64,000 nucleotides of DNA from Abyssogena phaseoliformis symbiont OG214 (GTDB lineage Bacteria > Pseudomonadota > Gammaproteobacteria > PS1 > Pseudothioglobaceae), in contig NZ_AP012977.1 of the NCBI RefSeq assembly GCF_016592595.1, positions 682,001 through 746,000 on the forward strand. Direction: 5' to 3'. Of this stretch, positions 6,031 through 57,363 are shown piece by piece. The translations under genes were made by a program, and so were the position numbers. The notes beneath the pieces were generated by a model that saw only the letters and a program-made list of their open reading frames with translations, was not told where the DNA came from and made no database searches. The number at the start of each line of letters is the position of its first letter. Within the stretch, counting starts at the first letter, position 1.

Positions 6031-8148
6031 ATGTCAGATCCCCATTATAAAAGAGAGTCAGAAAAATACGATAGCCCAATTCCTTCAAGAGAGTATATCC
6101 TTAGTTTTTTTGAAAAAAAATCACATAAATTACATGAATTATGCGATTTGTTGGCCATTGATCATCATCAAAAAAAATCCTTAACGCACCGCCTTAAGGC
6201 TATGGTTCGTGATCAACAGCTAAATTGTGATCAGCGTGGCGTGTATCAAAAATTTAGTGCAAAAAGTGGGGTGATGACTGGCACAGTAATTTCCAATCCA
6301 AAAGGCTTTGGTTTTATTGCACTAGATGAAGGTGGTAAAGATTTAAGACTATCATCAAAGCAAATGCAATTGGTTTTTCATGGCGACCGAGTCAAAGTAC
6401 GCTTGCTTAACCAGCGCGGTGATGCACAAATTATTAAAGTTATCAAAAGTATTGAAACTATAGTAGGGCGCCTACATCTTGAAAAAGAAGAGGCTTATGT
6501 TGTGGTTGACGACAAGCGTATTAAGCATAATATTAGCATTTTAAAGATTAATAAAGAACATCTTGATGAGCAAGTTGTGATTGTTAAAATCACCAAATCC
6601 CCAACCCTAGAAAGCCAAGCAGTGGGTGAAATTGTCCAAATTTTAGGCAGTTACATGGATGAAGGTGTAGAAACAGATTCCGCCCTTTATCGCAATGGTA
6701 TTCCAGTTGATTTTTCACCCGAAGCGCTCTCACAAACCGATAAATTACCAAGCGTAGTAACCGATAGCGATAAAAAAAGTCGAATTGACATCACTAAAAT
6801 GAAATTAGTGACGATTGATGGTGAAGATTCTCGCGATTTTGACGATGCCGTTTACGCACAAGCCACCAGCAAGGGCTGGAAATTAGTTGTTGCTATTGCC
6901 GATGTATCGCATTACGTAAAAGAAGGCTCAGACTTAGACAAAGATGCCACAGATCGTGGCAATTCGGTATATTTTCCACGTCGCGTTGTACCAATGTTGC
7001 CTGAGGCTTTGTCGAACGGCTTATGTTCAATTAACCTTGATGTTGAGCGCTTATGTATGTCTTGTGAGATGAATATTGATACTCATGGTAATTTATTGGA
7101 TTATAAGTTTTATCCTGCTGTTATGTTCTCACACGCGCGATTAACCTACACCAAGGTGAGCCAAATTTTAGAACACCACGATGTCGATCTGATTCAACAG
7201 TACGCATCAGTGATGGATAATTTAAATGCACTGTATGATTTATACAAAGCCCTTAAACACGCCAGAATTAAGCGCGGGGTGATGGATTTTGACCGCATCG
7301 AATCACAAATTTTATTTAATGATAACGGCAAAATTGACAACATCATTGCTCGCTCTCACAACGATGCCCACAAGCTGATTGAAGAATGCATGTTAATGGC
7401 TAATCAAGCAAGTGCTAAATTTTTAAATCATCATAATGAGGATTTTTTATACCGAATTCATCCCAAACCCACAGCAGAAAAAGTAGAAGTTACTCGCCAG
7501 TTTTTAACTGCCATTGGCTTAACGCTTGAAGGTGGCGCACAACCAGATTCTAAAGACTTTGCTAAAGTGCTTGAAAGCGCCAAAGGTAGAGACGATGAAA
7601 ACATCATTAAAACCGTTGTTTTACGCACCATGAAACAAGCCGTTTACACCCCTGCCAACGAAGGCCACTTTGGCTTAGCATTTGAAGACTATACCCATTT
7701 CACCTCACCCATTAGGCGCTATCCTGATCTTTTGGTACATCGCGCCATTAAACGCGTTTTAGACAAAAAGAGCAGAAAACCCAGCAAAAAAATGCTTGAA
7801 ATTGGCGCACACTTATCCATGACCGAGCGCCGAGCAGACGACGCCTCACGCGATGTTGAACAATGGCTAAAATGCGAATACATGCGCGATAAAGTAGGAG
7901 ATACTTTTAATGGTGTTATTTCTGGTGTTGCTGGTTTTGGTATTTTTATCGAACTCACCGACGTATTTGTCGAAGGCATGATTGCCATGCGTGACATGAA
8001 AGATGACTATTATATTTTCGATGATATTCACCATCAGCTCAAAGGCGAACGCGCTGGCAAGGTTTATCAACTAGGCGACACCATTACAATTCAAGTCGCT
8101 TCTGTTAATCTTGACGATAGACAGATGGTATTTGTGCCAGCTAAATAA
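6031..8148 (+). CDS. rnr: Ribonuclease R
   Basis: Processive 3'-5' exoribonuclease that degrades structured RNA. The 705-residue protein has an N-terminal winged-helix segment, two cold-shock domains (TGTVISNPKGFGFIALDEGG near residue 80), and the RNB catalytic domain. DSRDFDDAV at about 266-274 holds the metal-binding aspartates. A C-terminal S1 domain starts at about residue 630 (VISGVAGFGIFIEL). The long Lys-rich tail of E. coli RNase R is absent, so the protein ends soon after S1. This is at the short end of the family, but the architecture marks RNase R rather than RNase II. Confidence 0.95.
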   Translation: MSDPHYKRESEKYDSPIPSREYILSFFEKKSHKLHELCDLLAIDHHQKKSLTHRLKAMVRDQQLNCDQRGVYQKFSAKSGVMTGTVISNPKGFGFIALDEGGKDLRLSSKQMQLVFHGDRVKVRLLNQRGDAQIIKVIKSIETIVGRLHLEKEEAYVVVDDKRIKHNISILKINKEHLDEQVVIVKITKSPTLESQAVGEIVQILGSYMDEGVETDSALYRNGIPVDFSPEALSQTDKLPSVVTDSDKKSRIDITKMKLVTIDGEDSRDFDDAVYAQATSKGWKLVVAIADVSHYVKEGSDLDKDATDRGNSVYFPRRVVPMLPEALSNGLCSINLDVERLCMSCEMNIDTHGNLLDYKFYPAVMFSHARLTYTKVSQILEHHDVDLIQQYASVMDNLNALYDLYKALKHARIKRGVMDFDRIESQILFNDNGKIDNIIARSHNDAHKLIEECMLMANQASAKFLNHHNEDFLYRIHPKPTAEKVEVTRQFLTAIGLTLEGGAQPDSKDFAKVLESAKGRDDENIIKTVVLRTMKQAVYTPANEGHFGLAFEDYTHFTSPIRRYPDLLVHRAIKRVLDKKSRKPSKKMLEIGAHLSMTERRADDASRDVEQWLKCEYMRDKVGDTFNGVISGVAGFGIFIELTDVFVEGMIAMRDMKDDYYIFDDIHHQLKGERAGKVYQLGDTITIQVASVNLDDRQMVFVPAK

Positions 8149-51584: not shown

Positions 51585-51977
51585 TTATTTATCTCGATTA
51601 CTCCAATAATCAGCCTTGTTTGAAATCACCCAGCGTACACCGCCCTTAGGGTTTTCAACATCATCTTTATATCTAGGAATCAAATGCACATGTAAGTGCA
51701 TAATGCTTTGCCCTGCTGCTTTACCATTATTCACACCAATGTTATAACCATCTGGAGAAAACTCCTCATCAAGAATAAGTTTAGCCTTTTGAATAGCTTT
51801 GGCAATCGCATTTTGCTCTTGCTCGGTAATGTCAAAATAAGTAGCAACGTGTCTTTTAGGGATAATCAACACATGCCCAGGAGAGGCAGGATAAGAGTCT
51901 AAAAATGTAATGGTTAAATCACACTGACCAATAATTCTTTCTTCGCGCAATTGACAAAACAAGCAATCTGTATTCAT
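51585..51977 (-). CDS. HIT-family nucleotide hydrolase
   Basis: A 130-residue histidine-triad protein: HLHVHLIPR near residue 98 carries the catalytic His. GHVLIIPKRHVATYFDI and NIGVNNGKAAGQSIMHLHVH are the other family blocks. CLFCQLREERIIG at the start has the two cysteines common in the HINT/Fhit-like group with a zinc site. Likely a purine nucleoside phosphoramidase or dinucleoside polyphosphate hydrolase; the exact substrate is unknown. Confidence 0.88.
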   Translation of the reverse strand: MNTDCLFCQLREERIIGQCDLTITFLDSYPASPGHVLIIPKRHVATYFDITEQEQNAIAKAIQKAKLILDEEFSPDGYNIGVNNGKAAGQSIMHLHVHLIPRYKDDVENPKGGVRWVISNKADYWSNRDK

Positions 51978-52079: not shown

Positions 52080-52112
52080 TAAAAAACCGGCATAAAGCCG
52101 GCTTTACTACGC
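52080..52112 (-). terminator. Terminator of the first sulfur-globule-like gene
   Basis: On the minus strand AGCCGGC, a five-base loop, then GCCGGTTTTTTATTG: GC stem and T tail, 11 bp after the stop at 52123. Confidence 0.8.
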
Positions 52113-52122
52113 AACTTATGAT

Positions 52123-52593
52123 TTATCGAGTATCTTCAGTTGATACTGAAGGCTCATCATTTTCTGTTTCAGCCGTTACTGGAATTGCTTGATTGTAGCC
52201 ATAATTCCAAGGGCTGTTATTCATTGCTCCAAACGAACTAGGGCTGGTATTAAACCCCCAAGGTCTGGTAGTGCCAGTATCAAAACTAAACGGCTGACCA
52301 TTACTATTATTAAAAGGACTGAAGTTGTTATTAGTTCTAAACGGCGTAAAAGAATTATTATTATTCCAAGGATAATTTCCCCAATTGTTACCATTACCCC
52401 AAGGTGAATTGCCATAACTACTGCCGTTCCAAGGTGTATCGTTACCACCCCATGGTGTGTTGTTAACATTGCCATTACTCCAAGGCGTGTTGTTGCCAAA
52501 ATTCATTGGACTGTTGCTATTCCAATTATTGCCCCAATTTGCAGTAACATTAAGTGCCAATGTTAGTAAAGAAATTGTTATTATTTTTTTCAT
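52123..52593 (-). CDS. Secreted Asn/Trp/Pro-rich repeat protein, sulfur-globule-like (1)
   Basis: A 156-residue protein with a signal peptide (MKKIITISLLTLALNVTA) followed by low-complexity repeats of NPWG/TPWN type: NNTPWGGNDTPWNG, SYGNSPWGNGNNWGNYPWN. The composition is dominated by Asn, Gly, Pro, Trp and Ser, with no Cys. This resembles the sulfur-globule envelope proteins (Sgp CV2-like) of sulfur-oxidising gammaproteobacteria, which coat periplasmic sulfur stores. Assignment rests on composition and layout, not on a conserved motif. It has its own terminator and no operon partner. Confidence 0.62.
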   Translation of the reverse strand: MKKIITISLLTLALNVTANWGNNWNSNSPMNFGNNTPWSNGNVNNTPWGGNDTPWNGSSYGNSPWGNGNNWGNYPWNNNNSFTPFRTNNNFSPFNNSNGQPFSFDTGTTRPWGFNTSPSSFGAMNNSPWNYGYNQAIPVTAETENDEPSVSTEDTR

Positions 52594-52655
52594 ACTTTTC
52601 CACTCCTTAATTATTAATTAATCGTCATTATAAACCTAATGTCTTACTTTTAGCG

Positions 52656-52685
52656 AAAAAAAACCAGCAACTAATGCTGGTTTTT
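52656..52685 (-). terminator. Terminator of the second sulfur-globule-like gene
   Basis: AAAAACCAGC-aactaat-GCTGGTTTTT: GC stem with long T tail in minus orientation, 17 bp after the stop at 52702. Confidence 0.85.
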
Positions 52686-52701
52686 AATCATAGCTTTTAT
52701 A

Positions 52702-53070
52702 CTATCTTGCTGTTGGTACTACTGGTGTAGCCATGTTAGGTGCAACGCCAGGTCCCCATGGGGTATTTACATAACTATTGGGTGCAAAACCATAACCATA
52801 ACCATTGCGACCATAACCATAATAGTTATTGTTATTGTTATTCCAACCGTTATTGTCAAACTCATCAAACATATTGCCCATTTCTTCTGGATACCAACGA
52901 GGATCCCAAAAATCGTATGGGTTGTAACCAAACATGCCATTATCTTCTTGATAGCCATAACCATTATGGTTGTTGTAACCATTGCTCCGAGGGGTGTTGT
53001 TGTTCCAAAATGCATTTGCACTTAGAATGAATGCCAATAGCACTATTGCAAAAATCTTTTTCATTGTCAT
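52702..53070 (-). CDS. Secreted Gly/Tyr/Asn-rich protein, sulfur-globule-like (2)
   Basis: A 122-residue exported protein. The N-terminus MTMKKIFAIVLLAFILSANA is the signal peptide (a second Met at position 3 is an alternative start). The mature part has FWNNNTPRSNGYNNHNGYGY, a short acidic stretch (DPRWYPEEMGNMFDEFDN), and a Tyr/Gly repeat (NNNNYYGYGRNGYGYGFAP). The Gly-Tyr repeats and the AFW start after the cleavage site look like Sgp CV1 of Allochromatium-type organisms. Confidence 0.65.
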   Translation of the reverse strand: MTMKKIFAIVLLAFILSANAFWNNNTPRSNGYNNHNGYGYQEDNGMFGYNPYDFWDPRWYPEEMGNMFDEFDNNGWNNNNNNYYGYGRNGYGYGFAPNSYVNTPWGPGVAPNMATPVVPTAR

Positions 53071-53124
53071 ATCTCCATTTAATTAACTTGATTTGTATTA
53101 TATCATAATGATATATTTATGCAA

Positions 53125-53147
53125 ATTAGTCTTTAAGCAAGACTAAT
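53125..53147 (-). terminator. Hairpin after the third sulfur-globule-like gene
   Basis: ATTAGTCTT-taagc-AAGACTAAT: a perfect 9-bp stem just beyond the stop at 53150, with a weak T tail. Confidence 0.5.
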
Positions 53148-53149
53148 AT

Positions 53150-53548
53150 TTAAAAAGAGTGGGAACTGCGTGAATATCGATAGTCAGTATAAGACTTTGG
53201 CGACCCAGAATTGTTCACTACTGGGGTATGATTAGGCGTAGAAAATGACATGGCTGCAGGTGTTTCATATATCAAAGGCGTGGTGTTGTTTTCTGCTTGA
53301 TATGCCTGACTAGGGGTTGGCATTTGATTCATATTAAAGCGTGAGGCGTTGGTATTAAATGCTTGATTGTTATAGGGATAAGGGTAGGGGTAATTATAAC
53401 GACGATTGTTAGTATTATTATCTACCCTTTCCATCCAAACTGGCCAATCGTTATTCTTATAACCAGCACCATAACTGTTAAAGTCTAAAAATGCAGTTGT
53501 ATTTAAACTTATGATTAGCAATCCAAGTAATAATATCTTTTTCACCAC
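53150..53548 (-). CDS. Secreted Asn/Tyr/Pro-rich protein, possibly sulfur-globule-associated (3)
   Basis: A 132-residue exported protein with signal peptide MVKKILLLGLLIISLNTTA. The mature start FLDFNSYGAGYKNNDWPVW and the PYPYPYNNQAFNTN stretch are low-complexity like its two neighbours, but repeats are weaker and the C-terminus (SGSPKSYTDYRYSRSSHSF) is Ser/Tyr-rich. It may be a diverged paralogue. The three genes lie in a row on one strand, each with its own hairpin, so each is probably transcribed separately. Confidence 0.5.
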   Translation of the reverse strand: MVKKILLLGLLIISLNTTAFLDFNSYGAGYKNNDWPVWMERVDNNTNNRRYNYPYPYPYNNQAFNTNASRFNMNQMPTPSQAYQAENNTTPLIYETPAAMSFSTPNHTPVVNNSGSPKSYTDYRYSRSSHSF

Positions 53549-53591: not shown

Positions 53592-53597
53592 TATAAT
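53592..53597 (+). promoter_or_regulatory. metH -10 box overlapping the first ATG
   Basis: TATAAT here overlaps the ATG at 53596. If this is the real -10, transcription starts near 53604 and the second ATG at 53605 (MNTKQILQ) would begin an almost leaderless message. No ribosome site precedes either ATG. It may be chance in AT-rich DNA. Confidence 0.4.
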
Positions 53598-56500
53598 GCC
53601 AACCATGAATACAAAGCAGATATTACAATCTCTTTTAGAACAACGAATTTTAGTACTTGATGGTGCCATGGGCACCATGATTCAAAAGCATAAATTAACC
53701 GAGCAAGACTATCGTGGCGAGCGTTTTAACGATTGGCATGTTTTGGTTCAAGGTAACAACGATTTACTTTCACTGACTCAGCCTCAAATTATTAAAGACA
53801 TTCACAAAGACTACTTAAAAGCAGGTGCTGATATTATTGAAACCAATACCTTTAATGCAACGCGCACTTCCATGTCTGATTATAAAATGGAAGCATTAGC
53901 CTATGAAATTAACCTTGAAAGTGCCAAAATGGCACGCCAAGCAGCAGATGAATTTTCAAGTGCTGAAAAACTAAGATTTGTTGCTGGTGTTATTGGCCCA
54001 ACCTCACGCACTTGTTCACTCTCGCCAGATGTCAACGACCCTGGGTTTAGGAACGTCACCTTTGATGAGTTGGTTGATGTTTATATAGAGTCTACTCGTG
54101 GTTTGATTAAAGGTGGTGCAGATATTATTCTGATTGAAACTATCTTTGATACACTCAACGCAAAAGCTGCTATCTTTGCCGTTGAGCAAGTCTTTGAAGA
54201 TGACGATGTCGAATTGCCAATTATGATTTCTGGCACCATTACTGACGCCTCTGGTCGCACTCTATCTGGGCAAATGACCGAGGCTTTTTATAACTCACTA
54301 CGCCACGCTAAACCAATCTCTATTGGGCTTAATTGTGCATTAGGGCCTGATTTATTACGCCAATATGTGGCTGAAATGTCACGCGTGGCAGACACTTATG
54401 TATCAGCCCATCCAAATGCTGGCTTGCCCAATGAATTTGGCGAATATGACTTAGGCGCCCTAACCATGAGTGAGCAAGTAAGCGAATGGGCAAACTCAGG
54501 CTTGGTGAATATCTTAGGTGGCTGCTGTGGCTCAACGCCTGAACATATTAAAGCCATTGCCAATGCTATTAAAGACATACCACCAAGAAAAATCCCCACC
54601 ATTAAGCCAGAATGTCGCTTGTCAGGGCTTGAAGCCTTTAATATTGGTGATGATTCACTGTTTGTAAATATTGGCGAACGTGCTAATATTACAGGTTCAG
54701 CTAAATTTAAACGCCTCATTCTTAACGAAGAATATGAAGAAGCATTAGACATTTGCCGTACGCAAGTTGAAGAAGGCGCACAAGTGGTTGATATCAATAT
54801 GGACGAAGGCATGCTTGATGGCAAAGCTGCTATGGTTCGTTTTATGAATCTAATCGCCTCAGAACCTGACATTGCTAAAGTGGCACTAATGGTGGACTCT
54901 TCTAAATGGGAGATTATCGAAGCTGGGCTTAAATGCACACAAGGCAAGCCCATTGTTAACTCCATCTCACTCAAGGAAGGCAAGGCAAACTTTATACAAT
55001 ACGCTCGTCTGTGTAAACGCTATGGCGCGGCGATTATCGTTATGGCATTTGATGAAGTCGGGCAAGCAGACACGCAAGCACGCAAAATTGAAATTTGCAC
55101 TAATGCTTACAATATCCTAGTTGATGAGGTTAATTTCCCACCAGAAGACATTATTTTTGACCCCAATATTTTTGCCGTCGCAACAGGTATTGAGGCGCAT
55201 GATAATTATGGGGTAGACTTTATTGAAGCCACACGCATTATTAATAAAAATCTACCTTACGCCAAAATATCTGGTGGTGTATCTAACGTTTCGTTCTCAT
55301 TTAGAGGCAACAATCCAGTACGCGAGGCAATTCACTCGGTATTTTTATACCACGTTATCAAAGCTGGCATGACGATGGGCATCGTCAATGCAGGGCAATT
55401 AGTGGTTTATGATGACATTGACCCTAAACTTAAAAAAGCCGTTGAAGATGTGGTGCTTAATGCTGATAATAAAGCTGGTGAGCGTTTGGTGAATATTGCC
55501 GCTCAATTCTCTGGCTCACTTGAGCAAAAAGACAACAGCAAAGATTTAGAATGGCGTACATGGGCAGTAGAAAAACGCCTAGAACATGCACTAGTCAAAG
55601 GCATTAACAAATATATTAATGAGGATACTCAAGAAGCCTTTGATAAATTAGGTCGTCCTATTCTCGTTATCGAAGGCCCACTTATGAGTGGCATGAATAT
55701 TGTCGGTGATTTGTTTGGTGCGGGCAAAATGTTCTTGCCACAAGTGGTCAAATCCGCCCGCGTGATGAAAAAATCCGTCGCCTACCTAGACCCATTCTTA
55801 GAAGCCGAAAAAGAAGATTGTGCCTCCACTTCACAAGGCAAAATCTTAATGGCAACGGTTAAAGGCGATGTGCACGATATTGGTAAAAATATTGTTGGTG
55901 TGGTGCTTTCTTGTAATAATTATGAGATTATAGATTTAGGCGTGATGGTACCTGCTGAGACCATTTTAGAAACCGCCAGAAAAGAAAATGTCGACATTAT
56001 CGGCCTATCTGGACTCATCACCCCCTCACTAGATGAAATGGTGTTTGTCGCTAAAGAAATGACTCGCCAAGGCTTTAAACTACCCCTAATGATTGGCGGT
56101 GCCACCACCTCTAAAGCGCATACAGCCGTAAAAATTGAGCCAGAATACAATCATGGCGTGTTTTACGTACAAGATGCCTCTAAATCTGTTGGCGTGGCCT
56201 CGAGCCTACTGTCTGAGAAGTTAAAACCAAAACTACTAGCTGACACCCAACAAGAATACGAAATCGTCAGGAAACGCCGTGCCAACAAAGGCAAAAGCAA
56301 ACTCATTTCTTTAGAAAAGGCCAGAGCCAACAAGCCCAATGTCTCTTTTAATGCTATTGTTAAACCTAAAAAATTAGGCATTCATGTTTTTAAAGACTAC
56401 GACTTAGCCGAAATTTTAAAATTTATTGACTGGGTGCCATTTTTCCACACTTGGGAATTAGCCGGAAAATTCCCCGATATCTTAACGGATGAGGTTGTGG

Positions 56501-56868
56501 GTAAATCTGCTAGCGCACTGTTTGATGATGTCAAAGCTTTATTTAAAAAAGTGATTGACGAAAAATTACTCACCGCTAATGCTGTTATCGGCATTTTCCC
56601 AGCCAACAGCATCAATGAAGACATTGAGTTATATGATGAAAACGGTGAAGTACTCATGACCCTTAACCATCTACGCCAACAGTTGGATAAAAAAGGCAAT
56701 ACCCCAAATTTTTGTTTAAGCGACTTCATTGCCCCAAAAGACAGTGATATTCAAGATTATATGGGTGCTTTTGCCGTGACCACTGGCATTAATATCGAAC
56801 CACTCATCAGCGCATTTGAAGCTGATCATGACGATTACAACTCAATTATGATTAAGACTGTGGCTTGA
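53596..56868 (+). CDS. metH: Cobalamin-dependent methionine synthase, main part (end altered by artefact)
   Basis: Transfers the methyl group of 5-methyltetrahydrofolate to homocysteine through cobalamin. Domains: homocysteine-binding (residues 1-330) with zinc cysteines in GLNCALGP and GGCCGSTP; pterin-binding ([20 protein letters not shown], about 350-620); cobalamin cap and B12 domain with [15 protein letters not shown] (Asp-x-His-x-x-Gly, His near residue 760); and the start of the AdoMet activation domain. The frame ends at TGA 56866-56868 only because foreign linker sequence follows codon GCT. The true protein continues at 57364 (ADRLAEAFTELMHFKLRTEL); the intact gene would end at 57756. 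Confidence 0.95.
56408..56865 (+). repeat. Direct repeat, copy 1 (true metH sequence)
   Basis: 458 bp within metH, repeated almost exactly at 56907-57363. This copy keeps the correct reading frame with the rest of metH and is taken as the accurate one. Differences from copy 2 are confined to the first 40 bp and are homopolymer changes (AAA/AA, TTTT/TTT, TTTTT-CC/TTTT-CCC). Confidence 0.95.
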
Positions 56869-56906: not shown

Positions 56907-57363
56907 CCGAATTTAAAATTTAATTGACTGGGTGCCATTTTCCCACACTTGGGAATTAGCCGGAAAATTCCCCGATATCTTAACGGATGAGGTTGTGGGT
57001 AAATCTGCTAGCGCACTGTTTGATGATGTCAAAGCTTTATTTAAAAAAGTGATTGACGAAAAATTACTCACCGCTAATGCTGTTATCGGCATTTTCCCAG
57101 CCAACAGCATCAATGAAGACATTGAGTTATATGATGAAAACGGTGAAGTACTCATGACCCTTAACCATCTACGCCAACAGTTGGATAAAAAAGGCAATAC
57201 CCCAAATTTTTGTTTAAGCGACTTCATTGCCCCAAAAGACAGTGATATTCAAGATTATATGGGTGCTTTTGCCGTGACCACTGGCATTAATATCGAACCA
57301 CTCATCAGCGCATTTGAAGCTGATCATGACGATTACAACTCAATTATGATTAAGACTGTGGCT
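56907..57363 (+). repeat. Direct repeat, copy 2 (artefactual duplicate)
   Basis: 457 bp duplicating 56408-56865, starting at CCGAA just after the linker. Its first 40 bp carry homopolymer-length differences typical of a single low-quality 454 read. From about 56950 on it is identical to copy 1 as far as I can compare by eye. Confidence 0.93.

Follow-up and report, generated by a model that had tools for sequence, protein, structure and literature searches.

Probable sulfur-globule proteins encoded by a three-gene cluster of a vesicomyid clam symbiont, with relatives of one of them on phage contigs

What do three neighbouring genes for small secreted proteins of low sequence complexity do in the genome of a clam symbiont? 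They lie in a stretch of 64,000 nucleotides, called the window here, of Abyssogena phaseoliformis symbiont OG214, whose genome (G000) is one contig of 1,542,177 bases and whose genus is that of the vesicomyid clam symbionts. The initial annotation had likened the three proteins to sulfur-globule coats pointing to periplasmic sulfur storage, each with a signal peptide, repeats and its own terminator. All three open reading frames (ORFs) are borne out as real frames of the minus strand, and the locus is composed as follows.

51585..51977, minus strand: HIT-family gene, a synteny anchor outside the system
52080..52110, minus strand: intrinsic terminator of P1 (-14.6 kcal/mol, z -3.5, U-rich tail)
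52123..52593, minus strand: P1, secreted Asn/Trp/Gly/Pro-rich protein of 156 residues, without the core
52168..52212, minus strand: C-terminal motif of P1, PWNYGYNQAIPVTAE, found by alignment and common to the ends of P2' (P2-prime) proteins, genus g10
52655..52690, minus strand: intrinsic terminator of P2 (-18.7 kcal/mol, z -5.3, U tract)
52702..53070, minus strand: P2, secreted Asn/Gly/Tyr-rich protein of 122 residues, candidate core sulfur-globule protein
52855..52944, minus strand: conserved core of P2, DNGMFGYNPYDFWDPRWYPEEMGNMFDEFD, found by alignment
53097..53125, minus strand: sigma-70-like promoter with extended -10 (TTTGCA-17-TATAAT) upstream of P2, from a consensus scan only, in which promoter-like sites are no more frequent than in shuffles
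53122..53147, minus strand: AU-rich hairpin behind P3 (-8.8 kcal/mol, z -2.5, no U tract), a weak terminator at best
53150..53548, minus strand: P3, secreted Asn/Tyr/Pro-rich protein of 132 residues, GTG start
53423..53452, minus strand: core remnant of P3, NDWPVWMERV, which by alignment misses five residues (TPMYW) of its relatives
53596..56868, plus strand: metH (broken), the synteny anchor on the opposite side, outside the system

Ranking the 64 window ORFs of at least 100 residues by their content of Asn, Gly, Tyr, Trp and Pro after residue 20 puts P1–P3 in the first three places (0.62, 0.56 and 0.42 in order of rank, 0.29 for the next ORF), and shuffling the mononucleotides of the region 500 times never gave three minus-strand ORFs of at least 120 residues. 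Each protein starts with a hydrophobic stretch followed by a signal-peptidase-like site, as read by eye, which agrees with the signal peptides claimed before, and cysteine is absent from the mature sequences. Small size, a Sec-type signal sequence (again by eye) and a low-complexity mature part, the features of sulfur globule proteins, are thus found in all three. The remaining claims stand in part: terminators are present behind P1 and P2, the hairpin behind P3 having no U tract, and repeats are plain in P1 (NTPWGN type), weaker in P2 and less developed in P3, which contains little Gly (0.03 of its mature part). As for the flanking metH, its frame stops at 56868, and a 300-nt direct repeat, 99% identical (56412–56711 and 56910–57209, 498 apart), duplicates the C-terminal portion; the gene is broken or was not found in five congeners (G036, G037, G039, G040, G041) and is intact in Vesicomyosocius and in G043.

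Comparison within the genus, for which 12 congeners including the window genome were sampled, reveals that the three genes are kept very differently. P2 is intact in all 12, including the Vesicomyosocius genomes of about 1.0 Mb, where it alone of the three is kept; its closest relatives belong to the clam symbionts Vesicomyosocius and Ruthia. P1 is full length in four congeners (G000, G039, G043, G044), a remnant in two and not found in six, and P3 has a full frame in two (G000, G039), is broken or partial in six (G034, G035, G036, G040, G041, G043) and was not found in four. P2 is the most indispensable of the three genes, the one that survives genome reduction. Over the 66 within-genus pairs, pN/pS of P2 is highest in the signal sequence (0.49), lower in the mature protein outside the core (0.33) and lowest in the core itself (0.09). 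The AlphaFold model of P2 shows no confident fold (mean pLDDT 49.4).

The core is not confined to P2. A motif W-D/T-P-x-W/Y-W/Y-x-E-E-M is common to relatives of P2 and P3, and P2 and P2' have in common N-P-Y-x-x-x-[DT]-P-x-W-[YF]-x-E-E-M-x-x-M-x-D-E-F-D. Judging from these common core and C-terminal motifs, P1, P2, P2' and P3 would form one paralogous set. In relatives of P3 the core reads NDWPxWTPM[FY]WMEE/K; the residues TPMYW are gone from window P3 and present in its closest orthologue (G039). The suggestion of a different, perhaps new, third protein found no support: the version of the core in its orthologues (NDWPxWTPMYWMEEM) is the most widespread one, occurring in many families of the class, and P3 is instead a decaying paralogue in this genus. 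It is possible, if rather doubtful, that P2 alone works in this genome and that P1 and P3 are left over without a function. Window P3 has indeed lost part of its core, the gene is interrupted by stops, incomplete or absent in ten of the 12 congeners, and full-length P1 is limited to four, whereas in the window both keep an intact frame and signal sequence and, compared with G039, have changed less often by replacement than silently (dN/dS about 0.18 and 0.32, one pair each). We prefer to regard P1 and P3 as dispensable accessory proteins beside P2.

The gene order offers a link to an organism in which globules have been seen. In the free-living 'Ca. Thioglobus autotrophicus' EF1 (G061; genome paper PMC4616170), the order is metH, P3, P2, P2', P1, HIT, a secreted low-complexity gene and ssb, and the metH-[P3-P2-P2'-P1]-HIT neighbourhood is seen again across genera. 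The window locus is orthologous and syntenic to this cluster, of which it has three of the four genes, P2' being absent. According to the accessible portions of Shah et al. 2019 (PMC6509183), EF1 makes periplasmic sulfur globules, visualized by cryo-ET, and has four putative sgp genes, with three Sgp proteins differentially expressed. These putative Sgp would be of the same family as the window proteins, EF1 having a syntenic four-gene cluster between metH and HIT, the agreement between the metH-HIT genes and the sgp genes of that paper being one of number (four) only; the EF1 counterparts of the window genes were probably named already in 2019. Other secreted low-complexity genes lie outside the EF1 cluster. 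Near 135 and 737 kb (L249, L250) it encodes near-identical secreted proteins with WGPF repeats and an alanine-rich C-terminus (AYAKGQADA), and in the gap between HIT and ssb (L251:369-869) a secreted Gln/Met/Pro-rich low-complexity protein that has counterparts in genus g9 (L099, L100, L101) and of which none was seen in the window.

If the proteins serve sulfur storage, their genes should accompany the machinery that consumes the stored sulfur. The reverse Dsr pathway, to be expected alongside sulfur globule proteins, is represented in the window genome by dsrA (483 bits, cut-off 393). Among 83 genomes of the family, from 11 genera, P2 occurs in 48 genomes and nine genera (50 genomes when two extra weak partial matches of the P2 profile, in G068 and G079, are included), P1 in 23, P3 in 29 and dsrA above cut-off in 47. 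The latter is present in 43 of the 48 genomes with P2 and in 4 of the 35 without (Fisher p 4e-13), a co-occurrence that may go back to no more than one or two evolutionary losses because 30 of the 31 double negatives belong to genera g5 (29 genomes) and g2 (one genome). Among the five P2-bearing genomes below the dsrA cut-off, G045, G047, G055 and G080 have lower-scoring dsrA fragments and G074 a weak match only; dsrA without P2 is found in G048, G050, G053 and G079, two of which (G050 and G053) are 98–100% complete. Not only P2 but also P1 and P3 are absent from the 30 genomes of g5 and g2, so that orthologues in organisms without globules, named beforehand as what would speak against a coat function, were not encountered in these two genera, which have no dsrA above the cut-off.

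We further followed the core across the class in a sample of 369 genomes, with dsrA called at E<=1e-60. The P2 profile found matches in 14 genomes, and a core-only profile, built from 22 sequences of which six came from the class search with the P2 profile, found them in 30 (E<=0.05). Nearly all of the core matches that were read are signal-bearing, G/P/Y-rich proteins with either NDWPxWTPMYWMEEM or NPYDxWDPRYWMEEM. Chance likeness of low-complexity sequence was rejected for the shared core because this segment is not itself of low complexity and evolves more slowly than any other part. Present in 117 of the 369 genomes overall, dsrA occurs in 25 of the 30 core-bearing and 92 of the 339 core-less ones (Fisher p 2e-9), the exceptions being G300, G318, G377 and G397, together with G104, whose core match (E 0.035) is spurious. 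After removal of the own family, dsrA is found in 21 of 25 core-bearing genomes at E<=1e-4 (p 2e-8), and in 16 of 20 at E<=0.05 when the six profile-source genomes are removed as well.

These distributions bear on the idea that the three are envelope or matrix proteins (adhesive, S-layer-associated or involved in host interaction) unrelated to sulfur. Secreted low-complexity proteins are common, and the disorder that is all AlphaFold returns would suit such a role as well. We nevertheless consider it unlikely, given that P2 and its core track dsrA in both family and class, that the genes are present in free-living EF1 as well as in symbionts, and that phage relatives, described below, adjoin tusA, dsrC and dsrA. 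A coat for stored sulfur is the reading we retain.

The relation to the sulfur globule proteins already represented in domain databases is one of kind and not of sequence. P1–P3 have no match to the Pfam SGP model PF17228 at E<=1 (gathering score 26.7 bits), nor has any of eight core-type relatives tried, and the Pfam and NCBIfam scans of P1–P3 returned nothing usable; a match of window proteins to DUF4462 (E 0.16) was dismissed as chance. The model itself is working, since it recognizes a protein of phage contig L238 (33.3 bits) and another of genome G299 (28.3 bits). As a different protein of G299 matches and the core-type proteins do not, the core family is separate from PF17228; it is without a model in the libraries tried and probably works like Sgp. 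The statement that two of the window proteins resemble known Sgp types is thus right for composition and does not extend to membership. Proteins matching PF17228 are alike in being secreted and Gly/Asn-rich, their sequence pattern is unlike that of P1–P3 and the core-type relatives, and both families co-occur in G299, where at least five SGP-like genes rich in Gly and Asn (L111, L119, L121, L123, L124), each at a site of its own, were observed besides one core-type gene.

Likened by description, as far as the consulted text of PMC10386293 goes, SgpA–SgpD of Allochromatium vinosum are also small, secreted, low-complexity proteins, several per genome with one redundant paralogue pair, whose stored sulfur is used in an rDsr-dependent manner; their genes are dispersed, according to locus tags, whereas those of the window are clustered. 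The family of G320 (20 genomes, four with the core) gave no sign of A. vinosum, and a photosynthetic reaction centre was found in none of the 55 dsrA-bearing genomes probed. For Beggiatoa, the passages available from PMC7356093 describe a strain with one disrupted sgp gene that accumulates no sulfur. Further globule-related literature, likewise seen as extracts, concerns Thiocapsa (PMC10892978) and Thiobius (PMC10952691), with additional related papers in PMC7580541, PMC13137333, PMC9123188 and PMC11237559.

Relatives of P2 are also found in viruses. The P2 profile identified 21 IMG/VR contigs, a profile of the viral proteins added eight (29) and the core profile three, giving 32. Many of these are near-duplicates (L203–L206 share 12,757 bases, L199 and L200 share 17,203), so the number of independent lineages behind them is much smaller, about a dozen by our reading. 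The P2-type frame is intact in 31 of the 32 contigs, with 83–137 residues and a signal-like start, and broken in L209; each protein has one core, with two in L199/L200 and L212. Asn, Gly, Trp, Tyr and Pro make up 0.31–0.51 of the mature part in the 13 proteins read, against 0.62 in P2. In all 28 viral pairs silent changes per site exceed replacements (pN/pS 0.13–0.67), and AlphaFold gives no confident fold for the phage protein (mean pLDDT 49.8).

In a selection of the 32 contigs compared with PHROGs, the P2 relatives have phage genes as company and no flanking host genes. The L172/L218 contig encodes DNA polymerase, primase-helicase, exonuclease, RNA polymerase and a virion structural protein, and others encode ligase, topoisomerase II, a UvsX-like recombinase, a DnaB-like helicase, PhoH and ribonucleotide reductase. 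Host contamination was rejected as the source of these matches, because 11 other window proteins used as probes match none of the 32 contigs and because most viral rows of the tree fall in two supported groups (98/94 and 100/98) outside the host groups, the branches being long and L162 unplaced. One query each of the plasmid and INPHARED phage records yielded no match. Profiles of P3, P2' and P1 found no relatives in the viral contigs, so that just the P2 type is caught there by these profiles.

The neighbours of the viral genes are informative. In L192, L193 and L198 some 70 bases separate the P2-type gene from a downstream tusA, behind which lies dsrC; in L194–L197 tusA likewise lies just downstream, and L199/L200 carry, in this order, the P2-type gene, a tandem pair of dsrA, tusA and dsrC. 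The tandem dsrA of L199 (9037-10332 and 10418-11716) are 93% and 84% identical to EF1 DsrA; their PHROGs entry, phrog_24411, has no annotated function. Altogether tusA was seen on nine of the 32 contigs (examined stretches), DsrC above the Pfam cut-off on ten (whole records) and either of them on 12, leaving 20 with neither in those same stretches and records. The best viral DsrC proteins keep both C-terminal cysteines, and others are only about 37% identical to EF1 DsrC.

Starting from dsrC, 29 viral contigs have nearby five P2-type genes, three SGP-type genes (with identical proteins) and one WGPF-type gene, and in 20 none of the three globule-protein types occurs within the examined flank; these types are absent from the examined flank even in L222–L224 (one arrangement with the same matches) and L225, which carry dsrA, dsrC and tusA. 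SGP-type proteins were observed on the tusA-dsrC contigs L238, L239 and L242, with the Pfam model tested on L238, whose protein (6963–7433) is encoded 0.6 kb upstream of tusA-dsrC. L248 has the ligase-purM-ORF289 neighbourhood of L199 and L210, and its slot, again upstream of tusA-dsrC, holds a WGPF-type protein that is 48% identical to one of EF1. The strongest sign that this slot concerns globules is its occupation, ahead of tusA-dsrC, by different secreted coat-like proteins.

The same neighbourhood could suggest that the proteins bind metal or sulfide in the periplasm during sulfur oxidation, without coating anything, for instance by handing sulfur to TusA or DsrC. TusA and DsrC are cytosolic. 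Sulfur carriers are the genomic company of the phage relatives and the core is acidic; the mature window proteins, however, offer no cysteine for a persulfide, their signal sequences would direct them away from the compartment of TusA and DsrC, and their composition resembles that of structural coat proteins, which makes such binding very improbable.

We therefore favour, with a probability of about 0.82, the reading that these genes form the sulfur-globule-protein cluster of a sulfur oxidiser of the Thioglobaceae, with P2 as core coat protein and P1 and P3 as dispensable accessory paralogues. Periplasmic sulfur storage, as first proposed, is well supported by comparison, through the co-occurrence with dsrA, the synteny with the cultured globule-former EF1, the presence of P2 in every congener and the phage relatives beside tusA, dsrC and dsrA. 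P1–P3 would be exported by Sec to the periplasm, where their disordered chains rich in Asn, Gly and aromatic residues would coat elemental sulfur formed by sulfide and thiosulfate oxidation; the coated sulfur would be stored and later passed to the reverse Dsr pathway. The accessory proteins would have arisen by duplication, and the short acidic-aromatic core, the most constrained part, is probably an assembly or surface-binding element. We infer the localisation, the coating and the role of the core from the observed frames, core, synteny, dsrA co-occurrence, selection and retention.

As P2 relatives adjoin known sulfur-burning genes in viruses, the phage data suggest that phages of such bacteria tamper with stored sulfur. 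The phage P2-type protein keeps the signal sequence and the core and has lost much of the Asn/Gly/Trp tails; it might insert into the globule coat of the host and loosen or remodel it, and the stored sulfur would then pass to the TusA/DsrC/DsrA relay of the virus and be oxidised to support phage production. In a less radical version the phage protein would add coat and keep storage going. We lean slightly to loosening, because the neighbours in the cassette all drive sulfur out of the store. The proposal as a whole, namely that phages of SUP05-like hosts encode exported globule proteins, with at least three types taking the same slot in different phages, and remodel the coat so that its sulfur feeds viral TusA, DsrC and DsrA, has in our view an even chance of being correct. 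In the portions consulted, Kieft et al. 2021 (PMC8190135) list dsrA, dsrC/tusE, soxC, soxD and soxYZ as auxiliary metabolic genes, with TusA as a common neighbour, and Roux et al. 2014 (PMC4164917) phage phoH, 2OG-Fe(II) oxygenase, tctA and dsrC. The gene company (dsrA, dsrC, TusA, PhoH, 2OG oxygenase) and the SUP05-like hosts are the same, those portions name no globule protein, and the P2-type and SGP-type genes add to the set; nor did our searches of the open-licence PMC literature find a title or abstract that reports a phage-borne globule protein.

The shared core, the sufficiency of one gene in reduced symbionts and, most of all, the relatives in phages lift this locus above the ordinary. 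Little is understood of the coats of sulfur globules, since proteins of such low complexity are difficult to recognise, and the conserved core provides a handle for finding them in many families of the Gammaproteobacteria. The series of symbionts may be read as a natural deletion experiment, in which a single coat gene, P2, would suffice at about 1.0 Mb. The known viral genes act after sulfur has left the globule; if the phage proposal is true, phage proteins would act on the sulfur store itself.
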